The notes beneath the pieces are model-generated. The model did no database searches, was not told the origin of the DNA, and was given only the letters and a program-made list of their open reading frames with translations. Positions 19,821 through 39,458 of a stretch of 64,000 bases of DNA are shown in pieces. Origin of the DNA: Halostagnicola kamekurae (GTDB lineage Archaea > Halobacteriota > Halobacteria > Halobacteriales > Natrialbaceae); NCBI RefSeq assembly GCF_900116205.1, contig NZ_FOZS01000003.1, forward strand, positions 1 to 64,000, given 5' to 3'. The translations under genes were made by a program, and so were the position numbers. The stretch's first letter is position 1, and each line of letters opens with the position of its first letter.

Positions 19821-20990
19821 ATGAACTCCGCAGTCATCGTCGACGCCGTCCGAACGCCCTTTGGCAAACGAGACGGCTCGTTCAGGGACACGCACCCGCA
19901 GGACCTCGCTGCCGAACCGCTCGAGGCGCTGCGCGAGCGCAACGGGTTCGAACCGGAGACGATCGAGGATGTGATATACGGCTGTGTCACGCCCATCGAC
20001 GAGCAGGGACTGAACATCGCCAGACTCGCGCCGATGGTCGCAGGCTGGGGCGATATCGTCCCGGGCGTCCAGTTGAACCGGATGTGTGGCTCCGGCCAGC
20101 AGGCGGCGAACTTCGCCGCGGCGAACGTCATGGCCGGCCAACACGACGTGCTCGTCGCGGGCGGCGTCGAGCACATGACTCGCGTCCCGATGGGTTCGGA
20201 CGGCGCGGACGGGGCAGACGGGGCCGACAGCGTCACCGACACCTACTTCGAGCACTTCGACGAGGTGACCCACCAGGGAGAGGGGGCAGAACGGATCGCC
20301 GAGGAGTACGACTTCTCGCGCGAGGAACTCGACGAGATCGCCGCCGACTCCCAACGGCGCTGGAAGGAGGCCTGGGATGACGGTCGCTACGACGATCAGA
20401 TCGTCCCGGTCGAGACCGAACTCGACGGCGAGGAGGTCGTCGTCGAACGGGACGAACACCCGCGTCCCGGGACCGACGTGGAGACCCTGTCCGAGCTTCC
20501 ACTTTCCTTCCGCGAGGAGGGCGAGGGCTTCCACCATCCCGGCAACTCCTCGGGGATCGTCGACGGCTCGGCTGCACTGTTAATCGCGAGCGAGGAGGCC
20601 GCCGCGGAACACGGCTGGGAGCCGATGGCCCGGATCGTCCAGACCGAAGTCGTCGGCGTCGACCCGATCACGATGCTCAAGGGGCCGATTCCGGCGACCG
20701 AGAACGTCCTCGAGAAAGCCGATATGACGGTCGGCGACGTCGACCTCTTCGAGGTCAACGAGGCGTTCGCAGCGGTCGTGGCCGCCTGGCTCGAGGAGAC
20801 CGGCGCGTCGTGGGAGGACGTCAACGTCAACGGCGGCGCGATCGCCCACGGCCACCCGCTGGGTGCGACCGGGGCGATGTTGCTGACCAAACTGGCCCAC
20901 GAACTCGAGCGGACGGGACAGGACACGGCCCTCTCGGCCATGTGTATCGGCTTCGGGCAGGGCGTCGCGACGATCCTCGAGCGAGTCTGA
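19821..20990 (+). CDS. Acetyl-CoA C-acyltransferase (thiolase)
   Basis: The 389-residue enzyme has all catalytic parts of degradative thiolases: nucleophilic Cys in NRMCGSGQQAANFA near residue 89, the His of GGAIAHGHPLGATGAM near 350, and the second Cys in AMCIGFGQG near the end. It would cleave 3-ketoacyl-CoA to acetyl-CoA and a shortened acyl-CoA, closing the beta-oxidation cycle encoded around it. A GADGADGAD triplet repeat near residue 134 is an acidic loop enlargement. It is followed by an acyl-CoA dehydrogenase 160 nt downstream with its own promoter. Confidence 0.94.
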   Translation: MNSAVIVDAVRTPFGKRDGSFRDTHPQDLAAEPLEALRERNGFEPETIEDVIYGCVTPIDEQGLNIARLAPMVAGWGDIVPGVQLNRMCGSGQQAANFAAANVMAGQHDVLVAGGVEHMTRVPMGSDGADGADGADSVTDTYFEHFDEVTHQGEGAERIAEEYDFSREELDEIAADSQRRWKEAWDDGRYDDQIVPVETELDGEEVVVERDEHPRPGTDVETLSELPLSFREEGEGFHHPGNSSGIVDGSAALLIASEEAAAEHGWEPMARIVQTEVVGVDPITMLKGPIPATENVLEKADMTVGDVDLFEVNEAFAAVVAAWLEETGASWEDVNVNGGAIAHGHPLGATGAMLLTKLAHELERTGQDTALSAMCIGFGQGVATILERV

Positions 20991-21152
20991 GCGGAGTTTC
21001 CCGGCGGTTTTCGAATCGGTGCGGACGGGGCCACGGTTCGGACGGGGACGGGTACGCGGACGTGACATGGGGTCGCGTAGCAGACCGATCCCTCCTCTTG
21101 CTTCCAATGTATGCGATCGGACACCTATAGATTTACAATTCTGTATACTATC

Positions 21153-22412
21153 ATGGATAGTATGGAATACCACGATTCCGAGAAAGCGACGGAGGTCGCG
21201 GGGCGCGTAGCGGACTTCATGGACGAAGTCGTCATCCCGCGCGAGCGAGAGGCACTCGCGACGGGCGAGGACATCACGATGGACGAGATTCACGAGCTGT
21301 GGGAGCTGGCCAAAGAGAGGAATCTGTTCGCGCCGCAGGTTCCCGAAGAGTACGGCGGCCAGGGACTCGACTTCAGCGACATGCTTCCCTCCTTCGAGCA
21401 AGTCGGGCGCTCGCTCATCGGTGCGCTCGCGATCCGAGCCAACGCGCCACAGGAGGGGAACATGCACACACTCGAGATGGTCGGCACGGAAGCGCAGAAA
21501 GAGGAGTGGCTCCGACCGCTCGTGCAGGGAGAGATCCAGACGGCGTTCGCGATGACCGAGCCCAGGGCCGGGGCCGGCTCCGACCCGAAGATGCTCCAGA
21601 GCACCGCCGTCAAGGACGGCGACGAGTGGGTTATCAACGCCCACAAGTGGTGGACGTCCGACGGGCTCGGCGCTGACTATTACTTGGCGATGGTTCGGAC
21701 CGACCTCGAGGCCCACCCATACGAGGGAACCTCTATCATCATGGTACCGCGCGACGCCGACGGGGTCGAGGTCCAGCGGAACATCCCCCACCTCGGCGGC
21801 CACGGCATCACCGAACGCGAGGGCGGCCACGCAGAGGTGAAGTTCGACAACGTCCGGGTCCCCGTCGAGAACACGCTCGGGGAGGAAGGCGAGGGGTTCC
21901 GGATCGCCCAGATGCGACTGGGCGGCGGCCGACTCACCCACTGCATGCGCTACTCCGGGATGGCGGAACGCTCGCTCGAGATCGCGAAGGCTTACCTGCA
22001 AGAGCGGGACGCGTTCGGCTCGAAACTCGAGGAGAAACAGGCGCTGCGCCACCGCATCGCCGACGCCGAGACGCGCCTGCACGCCGCCCGCTGTATGGTC
22101 CGTCACGCCGCGCGCGAACTCGATCGCAGCGACGCCCGCATCGAGGTCGCGATGTCGAAGATGTTCACCGCGAACGTCACCAACGAGACCATCGACCTCG
22201 CGCTGCAGTGTCTGGGCGGCAACGGGATCGGCAAGGACCTGCCGATCGCTCACTTCTACGAGAACGTCCGTGCGTTCCGAATCGTCGACGGTGCCGACGA
22301 GGTTCACCGCCGCTCGATCGCCCGCTGGGCGTTCGAGGACGTCGACGAAGCCGAGATCGAGAACACCCTGCAGTTCGACGAGGAGCTGCGGATCGCCGCG
22401 CTCGAGGAGTAA
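21153..22412 (+). CDS. Acyl-CoA dehydrogenase, ACAD10/11-like
   Basis: The 419-residue protein is longer than the short-chain type and of the ACAD10/11 group, which prefers long or unusual (including 4-hydroxy) acyl-CoAs. Key segments are FAMTEPRAGAGSDPKML near 130, HKWWTSDGLGADYYLAMV near 160, and FRIVDGADEVHRRSIARWAF near 385, where the catalytic acid is Asp rather than Glu, as in that group. Two ATGs, 21153 and 21162, are possible. TTTACAA at 21132 is placed for a start at either. It follows the thiolase in the same direction. Confidence 0.9.
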   Translation: MDSMEYHDSEKATEVAGRVADFMDEVVIPREREALATGEDITMDEIHELWELAKERNLFAPQVPEEYGGQGLDFSDMLPSFEQVGRSLIGALAIRANAPQEGNMHTLEMVGTEAQKEEWLRPLVQGEIQTAFAMTEPRAGAGSDPKMLQSTAVKDGDEWVINAHKWWTSDGLGADYYLAMVRTDLEAHPYEGTSIIMVPRDADGVEVQRNIPHLGGHGITEREGGHAEVKFDNVRVPVENTLGEEGEGFRIAQMRLGGGRLTHCMRYSGMAERSLEIAKAYLQERDAFGSKLEEKQALRHRIADAETRLHAARCMVRHAARELDRSDARIEVAMSKMFTANVTNETIDLALQCLGGNGIGKDLPIAHFYENVRAFRIVDGADEVHRRSIARWAFEDVDEAEIENTLQFDEELRIAALEE

Positions 22413-29860: not shown

Positions 29861-31153
29861 TCAATCCGCTTTCACGCCCGCCCGCGAGACTTCGGGGTTG
29901 CGTAGCAGCGGCAGCGAGACGACCGTCAGACAACTGAAGACGAGCGCCGCACACAGAATGTAGGTCAGCTGGTAGCCGAACCAGAGGTCCACCGCGGGGA
30001 TGGCGACGAGGGGCCCGAGGCTGAGGCCGACGTCGCCCATCACCTGGTAGACGCCGCCCATTCGCCCGAGTTCGTCGCCCGGCGTCAGATCGCCCACGAT
30101 CGCCAACATCGCAGGCGCGGCAGCGCCCATGCCCGCGCCGACGAGAACGATCGCTCCGAGCAGCGCCTCGAGCGTCGGGACGTAGGCGATGATCAGAAAG
30201 CCCGCGCCCATCGAGAGGAACGCGGGCACCGTCAGCAGCGTCCGGTCGCTGACCATGTCTGACGCCCAGCCGGTGACGACCGTCATCGACCCCGAGGTGA
30301 TCACGCCCAGCCCCATCACGATCCCGCTGATGCCGGCCGCACCGAGCGTAGAGAGCTCGAGGCCGTAGTCGCTGGCGTAGCGGGCCAGCGTCGAGAGGAC
30401 GATCCCGCCCCAGAGAAAGCGGACGGCGAAGTTGCCGTAGCCGATCAGGACGACGGTCGGGTTGGCGGCGAGCAGCGCGGGGACCTCGCGGAGCTTCGCG
30501 GCCCGCCCGTCCGCGCCGGCGTGGACGTCGGGCAGGACGAGCGTCGCGACGGTGCCGGCGAGCAACGCGAGGAACCCGGCGGTGAGAAACGCCGTTTGCA
30601 TGCTCGCGAGATCCGTCAGGAGGCCGCCGAGGACGAGCCCGGTCGGGAAGCCGAGCGACTGGCCCCCGCGCATGTAGCCGACCCACCGGCCGCGGTTGTC
30701 GGCCGTCGTGACGTACGTGATCGTCGCGAACGCGCCGATGAAGACGAACGCGCTGCCGACGCCCCAGAACAGCCGCGAGACGACGAATACGACGCCCGGA
30801 AGCGACACGTCCCCGAGTATCGGCACCGTTCCCAGATCGGTCGGCGGCGCGTGGAGGCCGACGACGTAGCCGAAGGGGGCCAGCGCCTGCGTGAAGAGGC
30901 CGAAGATCATCGGGGTCCGCGCGCCGATCCGGTCGATGATCGTCCCGGCGGGCGTGTTCATGAACAGCCGCGCGATACGGTTGGCCGAGAGGATCACGCT
31001 CAGGATGAGCGCGGAGATGACAAGTCGCTCGTCGAGCAGCGGCAGCGTCGGGAACGCGACGCCGGTCGCGACGCCGCCGAAGAACACGCCGGCGATGACC
31101 GCCAGCGCGATGGTCCTGATCTCCGCCGTCGAGTAGATTGACTCTTCAGACAT
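29861..31153 (-). CDS. MFS transporter (DHA1-like)
   Basis: The 430-residue permease has 12 predicted helices. It starts at 31153 (MSEESIYSTAEIRTIALAVI). The loop 2-3 region reads NRIARLFMNTPAGTIIDRIGARTPMI, the conserved D-R-x-G-R type motif of the superfamily, and a second copy MTVVTGWASDMVSDR sits after helix 8. The substrate is unknown; it could export or import a compound related to the surrounding acyl-CoA pathway. It is monocistronic as far as visible. Confidence 0.87.
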   Translation of the reverse strand: MSEESIYSTAEIRTIALAVIAGVFFGGVATGVAFPTLPLLDERLVISALILSVILSANRIARLFMNTPAGTIIDRIGARTPMIFGLFTQALAPFGYVVGLHAPPTDLGTVPILGDVSLPGVVFVVSRLFWGVGSAFVFIGAFATITYVTTADNRGRWVGYMRGGQSLGFPTGLVLGGLLTDLASMQTAFLTAGFLALLAGTVATLVLPDVHAGADGRAAKLREVPALLAANPTVVLIGYGNFAVRFLWGGIVLSTLARYASDYGLELSTLGAAGISGIVMGLGVITSGSMTVVTGWASDMVSDRTLLTVPAFLSMGAGFLIIAYVPTLEALLGAIVLVGAGMGAAAPAMLAIVGDLTPGDELGRMGGVYQVMGDVGLSLGPLVAIPAVDLWFGYQLTYILCAALVFSCLTVVSLPLLRNPEVSRAGVKAD

Positions 31154-31195: not shown

Positions 31196-31291
31196 TCACG
31201 GTTCGATTCCGCGCTCCTCGAGGAGGCGCGCCCCGTTACCGTCGTATGGCGGTTCCATGAGCGTCTCCGCGGAGACGATATCGGCCTCCAT
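31196..31291 (-). CDS. Possible 31-residue protein or gene remnant
   Basis: An ATG at 31291 on the minus strand opens MEADIVSAETLMEPPYDGNG and ends LLEERGIEP before TGA. Codon use is strongly haloarchaeal (GCC, GTC, CTC, GAG) and a TATATTT box lies about 33 nt upstream at 31322-31330, so it could be translated. It may be a small protein in front of the MFS gene or a leftover terminus of a lost enzyme. No family is recognised. Confidence 0.35.
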   Translation of the reverse strand: MEADIVSAETLMEPPYDGNGARLLEERGIEP

Positions 31292-31397
31292 GTTGCCCGT
31301 GGTTTGTCACTCGAGCTGAAAAATATATGGGTACTGGTAACATGAGTCTCGCTTCGGGGTCCTTCCACGCGGGGGTTGCCTCGCCCGGCGGCATGTG

Positions 31398-31740: not shown

Positions 31741-32778
31741 ATGCCGAATAGACCCATCGAGGAACTCGAGGCGATGGTCGGCGACTCCCGAGCCACCACC
31801 GAAAAGTTCCGCATCGAACCCGGCAAAGTCGAGGAGTTCGCCCGAGCGATCACGGCCGACGATGCCGTCTTCCGTGACAAATCGGTCGCCGCCGACCGGG
31901 GCCACGACCGCGTCCCTGCGCCGCTGACCTACTCGCAGGTCGCTCGCTTCCCGCGGTACACCCCCGACGATGTCGACGGCAAAGGCTTCGACCTCGCCTT
32001 CCAGCCGGAGTACGTCATCCACGGCGAGCAGGCTTACGAGTACGAACGCCCCGTCTACGTCGGCGATGTCCTCGAGGGAACGACCACGCTCGCGGACGTC
32101 TTCCAGCGCGAGGGCGGCCGCGCGGGGACGATGACCTTCGCCGTTCTCGAGACCGAGTACCGGACGCCGGATGGCGAACTCGTCCTGATCGACCGCTCGA
32201 CGGCGATCGAGACCGAAGGAGCGATCGACGACGAGAGCTCGATGGACGACGAGGACGCGGCCGAGAACGACGCCGACGGGTCTGCCAGCGACGAGGGGGC
32301 CGAACTCGACAGCGCCACCGCCGACGCGGCCCCCGAGACTCCCGGATCGACAGTCGACGAGTTCGAGCGCGTTCGAACGGTCGACGGACTCGAGCCCGGC
32401 GCGACCGGTCCGACGGTCGTCGTCGAGGACCTCGAGCGCAAGCACTTCGTGAAGTACGCCGGCGCGAGCGGCGACTTCAATCCGATCCACTACGACGAGC
32501 CCTACGCGACGGCGGCGGGCAACGAGAGCGTCTTCGGCCCGGGGATGTTCACCGCCAGCGTCACCTCGCGGGTCGTCGCCAACTGGTTCGACCTGCGGGA
32601 CGTGACGAGCTTCGGCGTTCGGTTCCAGTCGAGGGTCTTCCCCGGCGACACCGTCGTCGCGAGCGGCGAAGTCGCCGGGATCGACGCCGATGCGGGCACG
32701 GTGGAGACGGAACTCGAGGCGCGGACGGTAGCGGGTGAAACGCTGCTGACCGGAACTGCGACGGCCGACCTCGAGTAG
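31741..32778 (+). CDS. Double hot-dog MaoC-family enoyl-CoA hydratase
   Basis: The 345-residue protein has an N-terminal hot-dog domain (about 1-155; PLTYSQVARFPRYTP, FQPEYVIHGEQAYEYERPVYVGD), an acidic Asp/Glu/Ala linker (about 160-205) and a C-terminal MaoC domain. The latter has the hydratase motif GDFNPIHYDEPYA near residue 243, with the catalytic Asp/His pair, and GPGMFTASVTSRVV. Proteins like this hydrate 2-enoyl-CoAs with R specificity. GGAGGG 5-6 nt before the ATG at 31741 decides this start. It is convergent with a DUF35/thiolase-like pair, matching the gene content of the ChsH/Ltp2 hydratase-aldolase module. Confidence 0.85.
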   Translation: MPNRPIEELEAMVGDSRATTEKFRIEPGKVEEFARAITADDAVFRDKSVAADRGHDRVPAPLTYSQVARFPRYTPDDVDGKGFDLAFQPEYVIHGEQAYEYERPVYVGDVLEGTTTLADVFQREGGRAGTMTFAVLETEYRTPDGELVLIDRSTAIETEGAIDDESSMDDEDAAENDADGSASDEGAELDSATADAAPETPGSTVDEFERVRTVDGLEPGATGPTVVVEDLERKHFVKYAGASGDFNPIHYDEPYATAAGNESVFGPGMFTASVTSRVVANWFDLRDVTSFGVRFQSRVFPGDTVVASGEVAGIDADAGTVETELEARTVAGETLLTGTATADLE

Positions 32779-32816
32779 GGAAGCGAAACGATGCGACCGA
32801 TTTTCCGTCGGCTCGA

Positions 32817-33242
32817 CTACTCCGGCGCGAACACCGGAATCGCCGCCTCGTCGGAGACTCGCCAGAACGTGACGCCGACCGCCGCATCGATCTCGAGGTT
32901 GTCGGGATCGGCGTCGAGCAGGGCGAGCAGGCGGGGACCCTCCGCGAGGTCTATCGCGCCGACGATATACGGCGTCCGATCACCGAACCCGGGTTCGCCG
33001 GGGACGTGACAGACGGTGTAGGTGTAGATCGTTCCGACGCCCTCGCTGTCCTCGAACGGCGGGTCCTCGGCGCCGCAGACGGTACAGACCGCCCGTGGGT
33101 AGAGCTGGCGGTGGCCGCAGTCGCAGGCCTGGTAGCGCAGTTCGCCCTCGAGGGTTCCCTCCCAGAACGGGACCGTCGCGCCGGTCGGGACCGGAACCGG
33201 GCCGTCCCACTCCTCGCGGCAGTCCTCGACTCGTCCGGTCAT
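32817..33242 (-). CDS. DUF35 zinc-ribbon/OB-fold acyl-CoA-associated protein
   Basis: The 141-residue protein has the DUF35 architecture: an N-terminal helix with FWEGTLEGELRYQACDCGHRQ, a zinc ribbon with four cysteines (CDCG and CTVCG, about residues 38-60), then an OB fold (VGTIYTYTVCHVPGEPGFGDRTPYIVGAIDL). DUF35 proteins form complexes with thiolase-fold partners: HMG-CoA synthase and thiolase in archaea, and Ltp2 aldolases in steroid-degrading actinobacteria. Its ATG overlaps the stop of the thiolase-like gene by four bases, so the pair is translationally coupled and almost certainly a complex. Confidence 0.9.
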   Translation of the reverse strand: MTGRVEDCREEWDGPVPVPTGATVPFWEGTLEGELRYQACDCGHRQLYPRAVCTVCGAEDPPFEDSEGVGTIYTYTVCHVPGEPGFGDRTPYIVGAIDLAEGPRLLALLDADPDNLEIDAAVGVTFWRVSDEAAIPVFAPE

Positions 33243-34387
33243 GATTCCCTCCGGAGGACAACGGTACTGCTCGAGGAGAGCACACCGCCGGTACCGTGGG
33301 CGACGGCCACCTCAGCGTCGTCGACCTGCCGATTGCCCTCGTAGTCGCCCCGGAGCTGGCGGGCGGCCTCGATGAGAACGAAGACGCCGAAGTGGCCGGG
33401 GTGGCAGTACGAGAGCCCGCCGCTCTGCGTGTTCATCGGCAGCTCGCCGCCGGGGGCGGTCGTGCCGCCGGAGACGAACTCGCCGCCGTCGCCCTTCTCG
33501 CAGAAGCCCAGGTCCTCGAGGGTGACCAGCGCGGTGTAGGTAAATGAGTCGTATATTTCGGCGACATCGACGTCGTCGTGGGTGATTCCAGCTTGCGCGA
33601 ACGCCTTCGGTCCCGTCACCGCCGCCCCAGTGGTCGTCATGTCCGGCATTTCGCTGATGTCCTGGCGGTGGGTGCTCGTCGAGGCGACGCCCGCGACGGC
33701 GATCTCCGGAACGCCGAGTTCCCGCGCTTTCGCCTCGCTCACCAGCACGACCGCGCCGCCACCGTCGGAGACGAGACAGCAGTCGAGCAGGGTAAAGGGC
33801 TCTGCGATCGGTCGGGACTCGAGCACGTCGTCGATCGAAATCGGCTCTCGCTGGGCCGCTTTCGGATTCATCGCGGCCCACTCGCGGGTCGCGACGGCGA
33901 TCTCCGCGAGCTGTTCCTCGGTCGTGCCGTACTCGTGCATGTGCCGGCGCGCCGCCATCGCGTAGGCACCGGGCGGCCGGAAGAGCCCCGTCGGTCGAAC
34001 GAAGCCGTCGACGGGATGGGTCTCCGCGAGCGATCGGTCCCGGTCCGGGCCGGTCTTGCTCGTGGAGCCGTAGGCGACGACTACCACGTCCGTCTCCCCA
34101 CGGACCATCGCGTCACGGACGTGCCCGCAGAAGTGCTCGAACGACGAGCCCCCGATCTCCGTCCCCTCGAGGAACGAGGGGTCGTCGAGATCGAGGTACT
34201 CGGACAGCAATAGCGCGGGCATGTAGTCCTCGCCGCCGGCGACCGCGATGCCGTCGACCGACTCGAGGGTGCAGCCGGCGTCCTCTACGGCGCGCACGGT
34301 TGCGATGGCGGCGTTGTCCAGCCAGTTCCGGTCGGGCGTCTCGCCGAGCTCGCTCTCGGCGACGCCTACGATGACCGGTTCAGCCAC
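33239..34387 (-). CDS. Thiolase-fold protein, Ltp2/SCP2-like, without the thiolase nucleophile
   Basis: I start at the GTG at 34387, which has GGAGGG 6 nt upstream; another GTG at 34408 is in frame. The 382-residue product has the thiolase fold (PVIVGVAESELGETPDRN, MAARRHMHEYGTTEEQLAEIAV), but the usual nucleophile site reads EIGGSSFEHFCGHV rather than N-x-x-CGSG, and the second Cys motif is replaced by AHGTGGVLSSSS. GLSYCHPGHFG and EIYDSFTYTALV retain His and two Tyr. Loss of the Cys is known in the non-thiolytic Ltp2 group, which with a DUF35 partner cleaves beta-hydroxyacyl-CoAs by retro-aldol reaction. Aldolase function is inferred. Confidence 0.83.
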   Translation of the reverse strand: MAEPVIVGVAESELGETPDRNWLDNAAIATVRAVEDAGCTLESVDGIAVAGGEDYMPALLLSEYLDLDDPSFLEGTEIGGSSFEHFCGHVRDAMVRGETDVVVVAYGSTSKTGPDRDRSLAETHPVDGFVRPTGLFRPPGAYAMAARRHMHEYGTTEEQLAEIAVATREWAAMNPKAAQREPISIDDVLESRPIAEPFTLLDCCLVSDGGGAVVLVSEAKARELGVPEIAVAGVASTSTHRQDISEMPDMTTTGAAVTGPKAFAQAGITHDDVDVAEIYDSFTYTALVTLEDLGFCEKGDGGEFVSGGTTAPGGELPMNTQSGGLSYCHPGHFGVFVLIEAARQLRGDYEGNRQVDDAEVAVAHGTGGVLSSSSTVVLRRES

Positions 34388-34596: not shown

Positions 34597-36162
34597 ATGA
34601 ATTTGGCAGACGTTACCGAGGATGGCAGAGAAGGGAACGTGGCCCGCCTCCACGACGAGACAGCCCAACTGCACGGCGACGCCCAGGCCATCGAGTACCA
34701 CGGACGGGCGCGTACCCACGACGACCTGCGGACCGAAAGCGCCCGGTTCGCCGGCGGGCTGGCGGACCTCGGAATCGAGCCCGGAGATATCATGCTCCAG
34801 TACCTCCCGAACTGTCCGCCGTACCTGATCGGCGCGCTCGGTGCGTTCAAGGCCGGTGTCGTCGTCTCGCCGGTCAATCCCCAGTACCGCAAACGGGAAC
34901 TGACCTATCAACTCGAGGATACCGACGCCTCGGTCGTCCTGACCCACGAGGCCGTCGCGCCCCACCTCGAGGAAGCCCTTGAGGCGATCGACCGGGAACC
35001 GGTGATCATCTCGGTCGGCGGCGATAGTGACGACATCCACGCTTTCGACGACGTTCGCGGCGAGGAGCGATTCGTCGAACGGGCCGACGACGACGTGGCC
35101 CTCCTGCCGTACACCTCGGGAACCACGGGCAAACCCAAGGGAGTCCAACTGACTCACCGGAACTTTCGGGCCCAGACGTTCGTGACCCTCTCGCAGGAGC
35201 AGGCGGTCGCGGACGAGGACGTCAGGAGCCTCGTCTGGCTCCCGCTCTATCACATCACCGGCTTCACGCACACCGCCTGGCAACCCCTCGTCCGGGGCGG
35301 CAGCGTCTACCTGCGCAGCGCCGCGAACTGGGACGGCGACGCCGCCATGGAACTGATCGAGACGGAGGAGATCAGCCACTACGTCGGCGTCACCGCGATG
35401 TACGTCGATATGATAAACAGCGAGAAGTTCGGGGCGTTCGACCTGACCAGTCTCGAATCGGTCTCCGAGGGCGGGGCGAAGATGTCCGTCGCCGTCCAGG
35501 AGGAATTCGAGGAGACCGCCGGCGTCGAGCTGTCGGAGGGGTACGGGCTCACCGAAACCACCGGCGCGACCCACACCCAGAGCGGTTCGACATTCGGCCT
35601 CCGCCACGGGACGATCGGCCAACCGACCCGGATGACCGAGGCCGTGATCGTCGACGGAAGCGGCGAGACGGTCGGCATCGGTGAGGAGGGCGAACTCCTG
35701 GTGCGCGGCCCGTCGGTGATGAAAGGCTACCACGGCATGCCCGCAGCAACCGAGGAGTCGTTCACCGAGGACGGCTTCTTCCGGACCGGCGATATCGCCC
35801 GCCGGGACGCCGACAACTACTACGAGATCGTCGACCGGAAGAAGCACATGATCAACTCAGCGGGCTACAACATCTACCCCAGCGAACTCGAGGAGGTGCT
35901 GGCCGAACACGAGGCCGTCGCCGAGGGCGCCGTCGTCGGGATCCCGGACGAGCGGCGCAACGAAGTGCCGAAGGCCTACGTCGTCACCACACCGGGCGTC
36001 GAAGCCGGCGAAGACGTCACGGGCGAGGAGATTACGGAGTACTTCCTCGACAAGGTCGCCTCCTACAAACACCCCCGCGAGGTCGAGTTCATCGAGGAAC
36101 TGCCACGTACTACCTCCGGCAAAATCCAGAAGTACAAGCTCGAGGAGCGAACGGAGGGGTAA
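34597..36162 (+). CDS. AMP-forming acyl-CoA ligase
   Basis: The 521-residue ligase activates a carboxylate to CoA thioester. The P-loop PYTSGTTGKPKGVQLTHRN lies near residue 170, the adenylate motif LSEGYGLTETTGA near 315, VDRKKHMINSAGYNIYPSE near 415, and the catalytic lysine in TTSGKIQKYKL at the end. The length matches medium/long-chain and fadD3-like enzymes. It is divergent from the thiolase-like/DUF35 pair, and may supply the substrate of the acyl-CoA dehydrogenase and hydratase next to it. Compared with the ligase at 12.1 kb it lacks the hairpin insertion in the loop after the adenylate motif. Confidence 0.92.
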   Translation: MNLADVTEDGREGNVARLHDETAQLHGDAQAIEYHGRARTHDDLRTESARFAGGLADLGIEPGDIMLQYLPNCPPYLIGALGAFKAGVVVSPVNPQYRKRELTYQLEDTDASVVLTHEAVAPHLEEALEAIDREPVIISVGGDSDDIHAFDDVRGEERFVERADDDVALLPYTSGTTGKPKGVQLTHRNFRAQTFVTLSQEQAVADEDVRSLVWLPLYHITGFTHTAWQPLVRGGSVYLRSAANWDGDAAMELIETEEISHYVGVTAMYVDMINSEKFGAFDLTSLESVSEGGAKMSVAVQEEFEETAGVELSEGYGLTETTGATHTQSGSTFGLRHGTIGQPTRMTEAVIVDGSGETVGIGEEGELLVRGPSVMKGYHGMPAATEESFTEDGFFRTGDIARRDADNYYEIVDRKKHMINSAGYNIYPSELEEVLAEHEAVAEGAVVGIPDERRNEVPKAYVVTTPGVEAGEDVTGEEITEYFLDKVASYKHPREVEFIEELPRTTSGKIQKYKLEERTEG

Positions 36163-36248: not shown

Positions 36249-37244
36249 TTACGGCGAGGCTTTCTCGAACGAGTAGTAGCGGACGCCGTCGCGCTCCTCG
36301 AACTCGACTCTATCCCGATCGTCGAGCGTTCCTAGGGCCCCGAGCGTGTCTAGCAACTGGGCCGGATACCGGACCTCGCCGGCGCGGTTCCGGGTGATCT
36401 CCCGGGGCGTCGCCGGCCCGACGGCCGTCACCGCCTCGAGGGTCTCCCCCGTGAGCGATTCGAGTTTCGAGCGCGTGTTCTCGATGGCGCTCGCGTAGTC
36501 GGTAAAGACCGGGCCGTGGCCGGGAAAGACCCGATCCACGGCGCGCCCCTCAAGGCGGTCCATCGTGCAGTGGAAGTCGTCGACGGCCTCGTAGGCCCCG
36601 TAGTCGATACCGACGTTGATCGCCCCCGATCGGAACGGCTCGATGAGCGCGTCTCCCGAAAAGAGGACGCGCTCGCCGTTCAAATCCGTCGCCAGGGCGG
36701 CGTGATGAACCTGATGCCCGGGCGTGTGAATCGGCTCGAACTCTCGACCCGAGACGGTAAACGACTCGTCGAACGCGAAGGGAATCGTTCCCTCGGAGGC
36801 GAGCAGGTCGCGGTTGCGCTCGAGCGACGACGTCGCACGCTCAATCTCGCGCTCGATGGCCTCGCCGCGGTAGCCCGCCGAGAGACCGATATTGCGGACG
36901 CCAGCGGCGAGGTCGGCCGGATCGCGCTCGAGTTGCTCGAGGACGGGGCGGGGAGCGTAGACCGTGGCACCGGCCTCGCGTAACAGCGGTATCTGTCCGA
37001 TGTGATCGGTGTGGGGGTGGGTGACGACGACCGCTTCGATGTCCGCGGGATCGTATCCTCTCGTCGCGAGCCCTTCGCGGATCGTCGCTTCGGCGCGCTC
37101 TCGAGGGTCTCCGGCGTCGATCAGGATCGGCGCCGGCTCCTCTATGAGGTAGGCAGCGGCGTGTTTCGGCGGCCACTCGATGTCGAAGTCGATGCGGGAG
37201 ACCTCGCTCGCGGCGCTCGCGCCTCGATCCGTCGATTCACCCAT
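36249..37244 (-). CDS. MBL-fold hydrolase (LACTB2/glyoxalase II-like)
   Basis: The 331-residue metallohydrolase has the motif VVTHPHTDHIGQIPLL near residue 75 (HxHxDH), TPGHQVHHAALA near 170, LFSGDALIEPF near 190, and FPGHGPVFTDY near 240, a complete dinuclear zinc site. The C-terminal ~70 residues form a winged-helix-like tail (TPREITRNRAGEVRYPAQLLDTLGALG) as in LACTB2-type proteins. It starts one base after the stop of the upstream acyl-CoA dehydrogenase (TGAGATG), so the two are an operon. A thioesterase or lactonase role in acyl-CoA metabolism is plausible but not shown. Confidence 0.85.
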   Translation of the reverse strand: MGESTDRGASAASEVSRIDFDIEWPPKHAAAYLIEEPAPILIDAGDPRERAEATIREGLATRGYDPADIEAVVVTHPHTDHIGQIPLLREAGATVYAPRPVLEQLERDPADLAAGVRNIGLSAGYRGEAIEREIERATSSLERNRDLLASEGTIPFAFDESFTVSGREFEPIHTPGHQVHHAALATDLNGERVLFSGDALIEPFRSGAINVGIDYGAYEAVDDFHCTMDRLEGRAVDRVFPGHGPVFTDYASAIENTRSKLESLTGETLEAVTAVGPATPREITRNRAGEVRYPAQLLDTLGALGTLDDRDRVEFEERDGVRYYSFEKASP

Positions 37245-37245
37245 C

Positions 37246-38490
37246 TCAGATGAGTTCGCGGGCGATCGTTCGCTTCTGGATCTCGTCGGTTCCCTCGAAG
37301 ATGCGGAAGACCCGCGCCGAGCGGTAGTTGCGCTCGATCGGCAAGTCCTTCATGAAACCGGCCCCGCCGTGGACCTGCATCGCGATGTCGGCCGCGTCGT
37401 TGGCGAGTTTCGCGCCGCGGAGCTTCGCCATCGACTCCTCCTTGCGGGCGCGCTCGCCGTTGTCCATTTTCCAGGCGGCGTAGCGGTAGAGCTGGCGGAC
37501 CTGCTCGATGTCGGTCGCGAGTTCGGCCAGTTGGAACGACACCCCCTGCCGGTGGCCGATTGGCTTTCCGAACGTCTCCCGGTCGCGGGCGTACTCGACG
37601 GACAGATCGAGCAGGTACTCGGCCGTCCCGACCGCGCCGGCGGCGATGTTGATCCGGCCGCCGCCGATCCAGTCCATCGCGGACTGGAACCCCTTGTCGA
37701 CCTCGCCCAGCACCTGCTCCTCGCCGACGCGGCAATCGTCGAGGTGGATTTCGGCGTGCGTGCCGGGGGTCATTCCCATCGCGCGGTGGATCGTCCCGAT
37801 TTCGTACCCGGGCGTCTCCTCGTCGACGAGGAAACACGTGATCCCGCCGAGGTCGCCGTCTTCGCCGCTCGTGCGAGCGAAGACCATCGCGAAGTCGGCG
37901 TAGGGCGCGTTCGTGATGTAGACCTTCTGACCGTTGATGACCCACTCGTCGCCGTCTTTCTCCGCGGCGGTGCCGCTTCGTTCCGAGTCGCTACGCGACT
38001 CGCTCTTCTCCGCGCGAGTGTCCATGTGGTGGGCGTCGCTGCCGTGGCCCGGCTCGGTCAGCGCGAAGCAGGTCGTGATCTCGCCGTCCATCAGCGGCTC
38101 GAGATACTCCTCGCGCTGGCGCTCGTCGCAGGCGAGCAGAATGGGCGTCGGGCCGCCCGCGCCGCCGAAAATGGCGCTGTGAAAGCCCGGCGGCCGGTTG
38201 GACATGTGTTCGCCGACGATGGCGCGGGTGAGGATATCGACGTCGCCGCCGCCGACCTCCTCGGGCATCGTCATGCCGTAGAAGCCCGCCTCGACGGATT
38301 TTTGGCGGATCTGCTCGACGATATTTCGATACTCGGGGACCTGCCGATGATCCTCGTCGACGATGTGTTTCTCGTAGTCCGCACCGAGGAACTCGTCGTA
38401 CTCGGTCTCGAGAGGCGCGACCTCCTGCTTGATGAATTCGTCGAGCGCCTTCTTGATTTGCACCGCTTCGGACGGTTCGCTAAAGTCCAT
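37246..38490 (-). CDS. Acyl-CoA dehydrogenase with a 48-bp in-frame insertion
   Basis: The product has 414 residues, about 20-30 more than its group. It has CFALTEPGHGSDAHHM near 130, VINGQKVYITNAPYADFAMVF near 180, REMETFGKPI-type RETFGKPIGHRQGVSFQL near 300, VHGGAGFMKDLPIERNYRSARV near 370, and the catalytic Glu in RIFEGTDEIQKRTIA. Between DTRAEK and DGDEW lies an extra SESRSDSERSGTAAEK encoded by 48 bp bounded by 9-bp direct repeats. The loop is before the flavin-contact strand. It starts an operon with the MBL hydrolase and is divergent from the IclR regulator, a probable controller. Confidence 0.93.
   Translation of the reverse strand: MDFSEPSEAVQIKKALDEFIKQEVAPLETEYDEFLGADYEKHIVDEDHRQVPEYRNIVEQIRQKSVEAGFYGMTMPEEVGGGDVDILTRAIVGEHMSNRPPGFHSAIFGGAGGPTPILLACDERQREEYLEPLMDGEITTCFALTEPGHGSDAHHMDTRAEKSESRSDSERSGTAAEKDGDEWVINGQKVYITNAPYADFAMVFARTSGEDGDLGGITCFLVDEETPGYEIGTIHRAMGMTPGTHAEIHLDDCRVGEEQVLGEVDKGFQSAMDWIGGGRINIAAGAVGTAEYLLDLSVEYARDRETFGKPIGHRQGVSFQLAELATDIEQVRQLYRYAAWKMDNGERARKEESMAKLRGAKLANDAADIAMQVHGGAGFMKDLPIERNYRSARVFRIFEGTDEIQKRTIARELI
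37958..38014. repeat. 48-bp insertion with 9-bp flanking repeats inside the acyl-CoA dehydrogenase gene
   Basis: TTCTCCGCG occurs at 37958-37966 and again at 38006-38014, exactly 48 bp apart. The intervening DNA holds the hairpin GAGTCGCTACGCGACTC (37985-38001) and a smaller GCGGC/GCCGC hairpin. The layout looks like a mini-element with a target-site duplication that keeps the frame. Confidence 0.7.
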
Positions 38491-38684: not shown

Positions 38685-39458
38685 ATGGCAACGACACGCA
38701 CGGACGGAGGAAATCGGGTCGAGGCAGTGGTCAAAACCCTCGATATCCTCGAGGCACTGTGGCAGGCCGATGGAGCCGGCGTAACGGAGCTTACAGAGCG
38801 GACCGGACTCGCGAAGAGTACGGTCCACGCCCACCTGACGACGCTGTGCTCGAAGGGGTACGTGGTCCAGAAAGGCAACGAGTACCGACTGAGCCTTCGA
38901 TTCCTTTCCTTCGGCGAGCACGTCAAACACGCCGAACCACTGTACGAGGCGTCGACCGAGCCCATCGAGGCGCTGTCGGAGCGCACCGGAGAACGGGTGC
39001 TCTGTTCGACACCCCAGAACGGCCTCGGGACGGTCATCAACGTCAGGGAGGGCAGCCGCTCGTTCACGAGCGATATCGACGTCGGAACGCATACCTACCT
39101 TCACAACTCGGCCGGCGGGAAGGCCATGCTCGCGCACTTTTCAGCGGAGCGAGTCGACGAGATTATCGACGAGTGGGGACTCCCCGTCTTCACCGAGAAG
39201 ACGATCACGGATCGAGACGCCCTCTTCGACGAACTCGCCACGGTTCGCGAGGAGGGAATCGCGTATAATCAGGGGGAGTATCTCCACGGGGTCAGTGCCA
39301 TCGCCGCCCCGATTCTGGACAACGACGGGACCGTCTACGGCGCCGTCACCGTCACCGGGCCGGAACACCGACTCGCGAACGAGTGGGAGGAAAACAATCT
39401 CGACAACGAACTGTTATCCACGGCGAACACGATCGAAGTGAACGTGATGTTCTCGTAA
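38685..39458 (+). CDS. IclR family transcriptional regulator
   Basis: The 257-residue regulator has an N-terminal winged helix-turn-helix (about 10-70; VTELTERTGLAKSTVHAHLT then KGYVVQKGNEYRLSLRFLS) and a C-terminal ligand-sensing IclR domain (about 80-250) with NSAGGKAMLAHFS, GIAYNQGEYLHGVSAIAAPI and the closing EVNVMFS. IclR proteins control catabolic operons in response to acids or acyl-CoA-type effectors. It is divergent from the acyl-CoA dehydrogenase/MBL operon and sits at the end of the whole acyl-CoA cluster, so that cluster is its likely target. Confidence 0.92.
   Translation: MATTRTDGGNRVEAVVKTLDILEALWQADGAGVTELTERTGLAKSTVHAHLTTLCSKGYVVQKGNEYRLSLRFLSFGEHVKHAEPLYEASTEPIEALSERTGERVLCSTPQNGLGTVINVREGSRSFTSDIDVGTHTYLHNSAGGKAMLAHFSAERVDEIIDEWGLPVFTEKTITDRDALFDELATVREEGIAYNQGEYLHGVSAIAAPILDNDGTVYGAVTVTGPEHRLANEWEENNLDNELLSTANTIEVNVMFS

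Follow-up and report, generated by a model that had tools for sequence, protein, structure and literature searches.

The first 64,000 nucleotides of contig NZ_FOZS01000003.1 of Halostagnicola kamekurae (hereafter the window) encode a protein with the fold of a thiolase and no nucleophilic cysteine, together with a DUF35 protein; the gene for a MaoC-type enoyl-coenzyme A (CoA) hydratase adjoins them (Table 1). Among characterised proteins, the thiolase-fold protein is most closely related to Sal and Ltp2, two aldolases that act on steroid side chains; still nearer to it is the uncharacterised Sphaerobacter structure 4u4e. We consider it an evenly balanced proposition that the thiolase-fold and DUF35 proteins (hereafter the pair) act as a DUF35-bound retro-aldolase that was added to a beta-oxidation island, with the MaoC hydratase able to supply its substrate; complex formation, the reaction, its direction, the substrate and the use of the MaoC product are what we infer here. 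A first-pass annotation of the locus had drawn a parallel to steroid side-chain degradation, and our comparisons suggest that this parallel holds as a way of working, while membership in a steroid system does not.

Active site and relatives of the thiolase-fold protein

The thiolase-fold protein matched the Pfam domain Thiolase_C_1 (1.5e-59) and scored 458.8 bits against NCBIfam NF004811 (PRK06158, 'acetyl-CoA acetyltransferase'), above the curated cut-off of 421, but the activity in the name of this family depends on a Cys that was missing from every relative examined. The position of the nucleophilic Cys is occupied by Gly80, and the surrounding loop was free of Cys in all 88 relatives, so that no catalytic Cys stands in a thiolase-type position. 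Tyr279 (codon 33551-33553), in the motif YDSF, and His329 (codon 33401-33403), in the motif CHPG, were both invariant (88/88), in line with the retained Tyr and His residues of the first-pass annotation, and YD-x-F was found in every relative where thiolases carry HD-x-F. Gly80, Tyr279, Asp280, Phe282 and His329 were all invariant in a 47-row alignment; the residue after YD, Ser281 in the window protein, was Ser in 58, Ala in 26 and Cys in 4 of the 88 relatives. The first-pass annotation had also counted the loss of the second thiolase Cys. This loss is real, His364 lying in the motif HGTGG and the old Cys position being His in 71 of the 88, but it is not diagnostic and was dropped as evidence, because the Cys thiolase BbsB also lacks the second Cys, with HVTGG at this site, and 7yvy has QNIGG. 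Among the seven thiolase paralogues of the same genome, five kept the Cys and all seven kept HD-x-F. Paralogues L005 (C3:314380-315099) and L008 (C1:1327270-1328109) have Ser in the Cys position or beside it (TSASG, TSSSG) and retain HD-x-F and GHP-x-G, so that the nucleophile has changed in a further way within the same genome.

An AlphaFold model of the protein, built with the 47-row alignment, reached a pLDDT of 90 and a pTM of 0.91, and its sole segment below pLDDT 50, residues 117-135, is the beta4-alpha4 loop, matching the loop that is disordered in Sal of Comamonas testosteroni (CtSal) and Ltp2 of Thermomonospora curvata (TcLtp2), where the disorder has been tied to open pockets for bulky substrates (PMC12329534). 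Foldseek ranked 4u4e first, followed by CtSal, TcLtp2 and then the Cys thiolase 7yvy, and the template modelling (TM) scores of the model to 9myr, 6ok1 and 4u4e were 0.88-0.90. The profile search gave 547 bits for 4u4e, 335 for CtSal, 291 for TcLtp2, 259 for 7yvy and 225 for BbsB. Both searches thus agree with the likeness to the Ltp2 class that had been proposed earlier, and in the tree Ltp2, Sal and the thiolase-fold family were split from the own-genome paralogues and 7yvy (SH-aLRT 99).

The best match, 4u4e, is a 'putative thiolase' of the bacterium Sphaerobacter thermophilus from structural genomics; it is 51% identical by fold alignment, shares the motifs GGSS, YDSFTYT, SYTHPG and HGTGG and is the same kind of family member, and a literature search found no reported function for it. 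CtSal, the second best match by both profile and fold, is a bile-acid side-chain aldolase in complex with CtShyDUF35 (PDB 9myr). It shares with the window protein the thiolase fold, the Gly for Cys, which is said to preclude thiolysis (PMC12329534), the Tyr of YD-x-[FY] and the DUF35 partner. TcLtp2, in complex with the DUF35 of ChsH2 and working with the ChsH1/ChsH2 hydratase (PDB 6ok1), likewise has the thiolase fold, no nucleophilic Cys and a DUF35 partner, and its Tyr294 (YDHF) aligns with Tyr279. However, CtSal is 32% identical and requires both Tyr302 (Y302F abolishes activity) and Cys304 (C304S is inactive; PMC12329534), and the window protein has Ser281 in place of Cys304 and His329 in place of Gln352. 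TcLtp2 is 31% identical and uses Tyr294 and Tyr344 as its catalytic pair (PMC12329534), whereas neither the general acid Tyr344 nor the oxyanion His of YDHF is present in the window protein. Those features of the Ltp2/Sal mechanism class that sequence and model can show are therefore all found (fold, Gly, Tyr and an adjacent DUF35), but the second residue fits neither Ltp2 proper (Tyr344, YDHF His) nor Sal proper (Cys304 of YDCY), which makes the protein a variant that is neither Ltp2 nor Sal. The fusion of DUF35 to MaoC and the single hydratase-aldolase operon that characterise the ChsH1-ChsH2-Ltp2 and Shy-Sal modules were not found either: the DUF35 of CtSal is fused to a MaoC hydratase, while in the window it is separate and the MaoC gene is convergent, and a steroid substrate is not indicated. 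The benzoylsuccinyl-CoA thiolase BbsAB (7pxp) and the archaeal acetoacetyl-CoA thiolase-DUF35-HMGS complex (6esq) also combine a thiolase fold with DUF35, but both were solved as thiolases; BbsB has lost the second Cys and keeps the nucleophilic one in the aligned loop.

Combined with these comparisons, a catalytic scheme can be proposed. The pair would cleave a 3-hydroxyacyl-CoA by retro-aldol reaction into acetyl-CoA (or propionyl-CoA) and an aldehyde or ketone. Tyr279 would act as the base that deprotonates the beta-hydroxyl, Gly80 would make room for this hydroxyl and hydrogen-bond to it before the C-C bond breaks, and His329, in place of TcLtp2 Tyr344, would protonate the enolate of the leaving acyl-CoA. 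Because Ser281 is replaced by Ala in more than a quarter of the relatives, it is argued not to be the acid, leaving His329 as the remaining candidate. DUF35 would be the structural partner, keeping the dimer together and giving the substrate cleft its shape.

Gene arrangement, DUF35 partner and distribution

Open reading frames were found at all three places where the first-pass annotation had put the MaoC, DUF35 and thiolase-fold genes. The annotation had described the three as sitting together; their adjacency is confirmed, but it had omitted the strands, and the layout (MaoC -> <- DUF35 <- thiolase-fold) does not bear out co-transcription of MaoC with the pair. A trio within one operon was ruled out by the MaoC gene lying on the opposite strand. 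The thiolase-fold gene is first in a minus-strand operon with the DUF35 gene downstream, and the convergent ends of the DUF35 and MaoC genes are separated by 38 bp. The proposed four-base overlap of the pair is real (ATGA) and was kept in nine of nine orthologous loci checked. The plus-strand frame 32817-33242 gave no recognisable protein, and the plus-strand frame 33239-34387 was interrupted by stops. An alternative start of the thiolase-fold gene lies at GTG 34408, giving a product of 382-389 residues by start. Values of dN/dS were 0.09-0.14 for the thiolase-fold gene and 0.13-0.19 for the DUF35 gene; this purifying selection shows that both genes are kept for function.

Table 1. Features of the pair, the MaoC gene and their surroundings in the window
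Feature	Coordinates	Strand	Remarks
Thiolase-fold protein, predicted retro-aldolase	33239..34387	-	382 aa from GTG 34387; Thiolase_C_1, PRK06158
DUF35 / ChsH2-type zinc-ribbon + OB-fold partner, 141 aa	32817..33242	-	Pfam; translationally coupled through the overlap
Double hot-dog MaoC/FAS1-DH enoyl-CoA hydratase	31741..32778	+	Pfam, GDxNPxH motif
Acyl-CoA ligase (AMP-binding)	34597..36162	+	Divergent from thiolase-fold gene across ~200 bp
Metallo-beta-lactamase-fold (MBL) hydrolase	36249..37244	-
Acyl-CoA dehydrogenase	37246..38490	-
IclR-family regulator	38685..39458	+
Major facilitator superfamily (MFS) transporter	29861..31153	-	Conserved cassette edge
ACS2 (second acyl-CoA ligase), decayed remnant	31201..31342		80% identity over 142-144 bp
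Canonical Cys thiolase	19821..20990	+	Motifs CGSG, NEAF, GHPLG, CIGFGQG; both Cys motifs
Acyl-CoA dehydrogenase adjoining canonical thiolase	21111..22412	+

The small protein contains the Pfam domains zf-ChsH2 and OB_ChsH2_C and stands alone, with no fusion to MaoC; its best PDB match (2.4e-22) was the DUF35 bound to the Sal aldolase, 9myr_B. Among 78 loci of bacterial and other relatives, 66 had a DUF35 gene within 1.5 kb of the thiolase-fold gene. Residues 39-55 form a zinc ribbon, C-x-C-G-H-x8-C-x2-C, that falls one residue short of the C-x2-C-x10-C-x2-C pattern usual in orthologues from other genera. Its spacing agrees with Cys-x3-His-x8-Cys-x2-Cys, which has been described as unique to CtShy, although some close orthologues have Asn for His. 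A paralogous DUF35 of the same genome (L193:7935-8318, minus strand, C2) shows a clear C3H1 pattern, CATGH-x8-C-x2-C, indicating that fingers of this type also occur outside Shy. Elsewhere in the genome, L188:7470-10093 (C5:35470-38093) encodes a fusion of DUF35 to an HMG-CoA-synthase-like protein, next to a Cys thiolase; the 92 kb contig that carries them has a weak contrast in third-position GC content (GC3) and is probably a plasmid or a recent import.

The survey covered 125 genomes of the family of the window (Natrialbaceae) and 394 genomes of the class. Thiolase-fold orthologues of at least 64% identity occurred in 27 of the 125 Natrialbaceae genomes, two of the orthologues belonging to Natrinema, and none of this identity was found outside the family among the 394 genomes. 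The nearest relatives outside Natrialbaceae are bacterial, at ~50% identity, and so are most members of the protein family; a second haloarchaeal clade, at 43-48% identity, stands apart in the tree. The specifically archaeal module of the first-pass annotation is therefore not upheld. The bacterial origin of the closest outside relatives and the separate second clade ruled out a haloarchaeal invention, and the simplest interpretation is a putative lateral transfer from bacteria.

The acyl-CoA ligase and acyl-CoA dehydrogenase expected to flank the locus are both present. Genome G015 has a 67% identical copy of this dehydrogenase flanking its thiolase-fold orthologue (64% identity), and an acyl-CoA dehydrogenase lay within 5 kb in 24 of the 78 relative loci. 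Presence of ACS2 matched that of the pair best among the tabulated genes, with ACS2 in 23 of the 27 genomes that have the pair and in 28 genomes in all (Fisher p 1.9e-16, shared ancestry ignored). Most relatives keep ACS2 and a short-chain dehydrogenase/reductase (SDR) gene intact at the site; both are gone from the window genome, where the scrap listed in Table 1 is left. In most g15 relatives a luciferase-like (Bac_luciferase) gene (L149:14073-15062) separates the ligase from the MBL gene; it is missing from the window and likewise from the g9, g11 and g23 loci.

Linkage of the MaoC gene and alternative explanations

The MaoC protein is a double hot-dog fusion of PF13452 (FAS1_DH, 1.9e-30) and PF01575 (3.2e-18), and its C-terminal domain keeps intact the Asp/His motif GDxNPxH of (R)-specific enoyl-CoA hydratases (SGDFNPIHYDE, starting at residue 244). 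It carries no DUF35 domain and lies on the other strand, unlike ChsH1/ChsH2. Of the 27 Natrialbaceae genomes that have the pair, 25 also have the MaoC gene adjacent and convergent, so the trio is by no means absent from related genomes; only the sister genome G018 and genome G015 depart from this. In genomes lacking the pair, MaoC often stands directly beside the Cys thiolase or behind an acyl-CoA dehydrogenase, and several of these genomes have an orthologue of the dehydrogenase that adjoins the canonical thiolase in the window immediately upstream of MaoC. On the MaoC tree the linkage label switched nine times or more, which speaks against co-evolution of MaoC with the pair. MaoC hydratases of Haloferax mediterranei have been linked experimentally to beta-oxidation and polyhydroxyalkanoate (PHA) turnover (PMC4823750), which is in keeping with a general MaoC role in the window genome. 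The link of MaoC to the pair is real but weak. Gene arrangement does not bear out a tight coupling of three enzymes as in ChsH1-ChsH2-Ltp2, and the linkage across genomes points both ways. Of the hydratase-aldolase module put forward in the first-pass annotation, the nucleophile-less, DUF35-coupled aldolase-like protein stands, and the case for the MaoC gene as a tight member is weakened, this gene being convergent and separable.

We propose that the pair joined a beta-oxidation island made up of the MFS transporter, CoA ligases, acyl-CoA dehydrogenases, SDR, MaoC and Cys thiolase, where the 3-hydroxyacyl-CoAs made by MaoC would feed two routes: the SDR and Cys thiolase for ordinary substrates, and the pair for those not oxidisable at C3. 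Since most relatives own the SDR and Cys-thiolase route as well as the pair, the pair may serve beta-branched tertiary alcohols, and its substrates are perhaps beta-branched acyl-CoAs.

Several observations weigh against this proposal. On the one hand, at the active site, the window protein lacks the second catalytic residue that each of the two characterised aldolases uses: the site of the required CtSal Cys304 is occupied by Ser281, itself variable, and His329 aligns with TcLtp2 Tyr344 (Gln352 in CtSal) by way of a gapped stretch. The fold score of the Cys thiolase 7yvy is nearly as high as those of the aldolases, and Sal and Ltp2, at only 31-32% identity, sit on long branches that leave the placement unsure. 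On the other hand, MaoC is convergent with the pair and separable from it. Its orthologues occur in 61 of the 125 family genomes, in 36 of them without an adjacent pair, and 40 of the 61 have a canonical Cys thiolase within 25 kb. G018 and G015 hold the pair with no MaoC beside it, G069 lost only the pair and retained the rest of the cassette including MaoC, and of the 78 loci of bacterial and other relatives only 12 had a MaoC gene within 5 kb.

These linkage data bear most directly on the alternative, which we regard as less probable than not, that the pair performs the retro-aldol reaction (or its reverse) independently of MaoC, on a hydroxyl from another route, while MaoC serves the Cys-thiolase beta-oxidation operon. 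The frequent proximity of MaoC to the canonical thiolase, its place beside that thiolase where the pair is absent, its rarity at distant loci, the two genomes with an unaccompanied pair and the repeated linkage changes all fit this explanation. So does the precedent of the ibuprofen pathway, in which the thiolase-annotated gene pair IpfDE is assigned the retro-aldol cleavage of a dioxygenase-made diol-CoA (PMC9195938); IpfD/IpfE resemble the pair in annotation and in acting on an acyl-CoA but use a dioxygenase product with no MaoC step, and the likeness is by description only. However, convergent adjacency of MaoC across several genera is above expectation for an indifferent neighbour, and no oxygenase is conserved in the cassette, the luciferase-like gene of many g15 relatives being absent from the window and three other groups. 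A non-aldolase CoA enzyme or a CoA-binding scaffold, for example a decarboxylase using the Tyr and His for enolate chemistry that stops short of aldol cleavage, is improbable: TbSLP shares the motif YDCF and slowly decarboxylates malonyl-CoA (PMC12329534), but CtSal has no such activity, and although no characterised PRK06158 member was found in the literature searched, the invariant Tyr and Gly fit the aldolase signature better. Thiolase function was ruled out on the active-site residues, and a thiolase or Claisen-type acyltransferase acting through some other residue, with the PRK06158 name correct, is very improbable: the curated cut-off is passed and the His of the GHP motif is kept, but the nucleophile is missing and YD-x-F replaces HD-x-F throughout the relatives, and the genome already has the canonical Cys thiolase and five Cys-bearing paralogues.

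Implications for the PRK06158 family

The retro-aldolase reading leads to a wider proposal, tentative and rather doubtful at this stage, that in this family the thiolase fold achieves retro-aldol cleavage of CoA thioesters by a catalytic solution that is the third of its kind. It would combine a Tyr base with the old thiolase His as acid and use no catalytic Cys or second Tyr, and it would serve haloarchaea and many bacteria in bypassing beta-branched (e.g. isoprenoid) acyl-CoAs, which are not oxidisable by beta-oxidation. Literature searches on haloarchaeal steroid degradation and on haloarchaeal DUF35 found nothing relevant. If the proposal is true, the whole PRK06158 family is misnamed as acetyl-CoA acetyltransferases. 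The retro-aldolase reading, if right, would extend aldol C-C cleavage of the steroid side-chain type to archaea and to a broad family of bacterial proteins that carry this label. The name itself is unsupported by the sequence and is likely a misnaming for the family; the lack of a nucleophilic Cys in 88 relatives is, by sequence alone, enough to question it. Tyr279 and His329 together provide a testable prediction on how the thiolase fold may have been converted to aldol chemistry.

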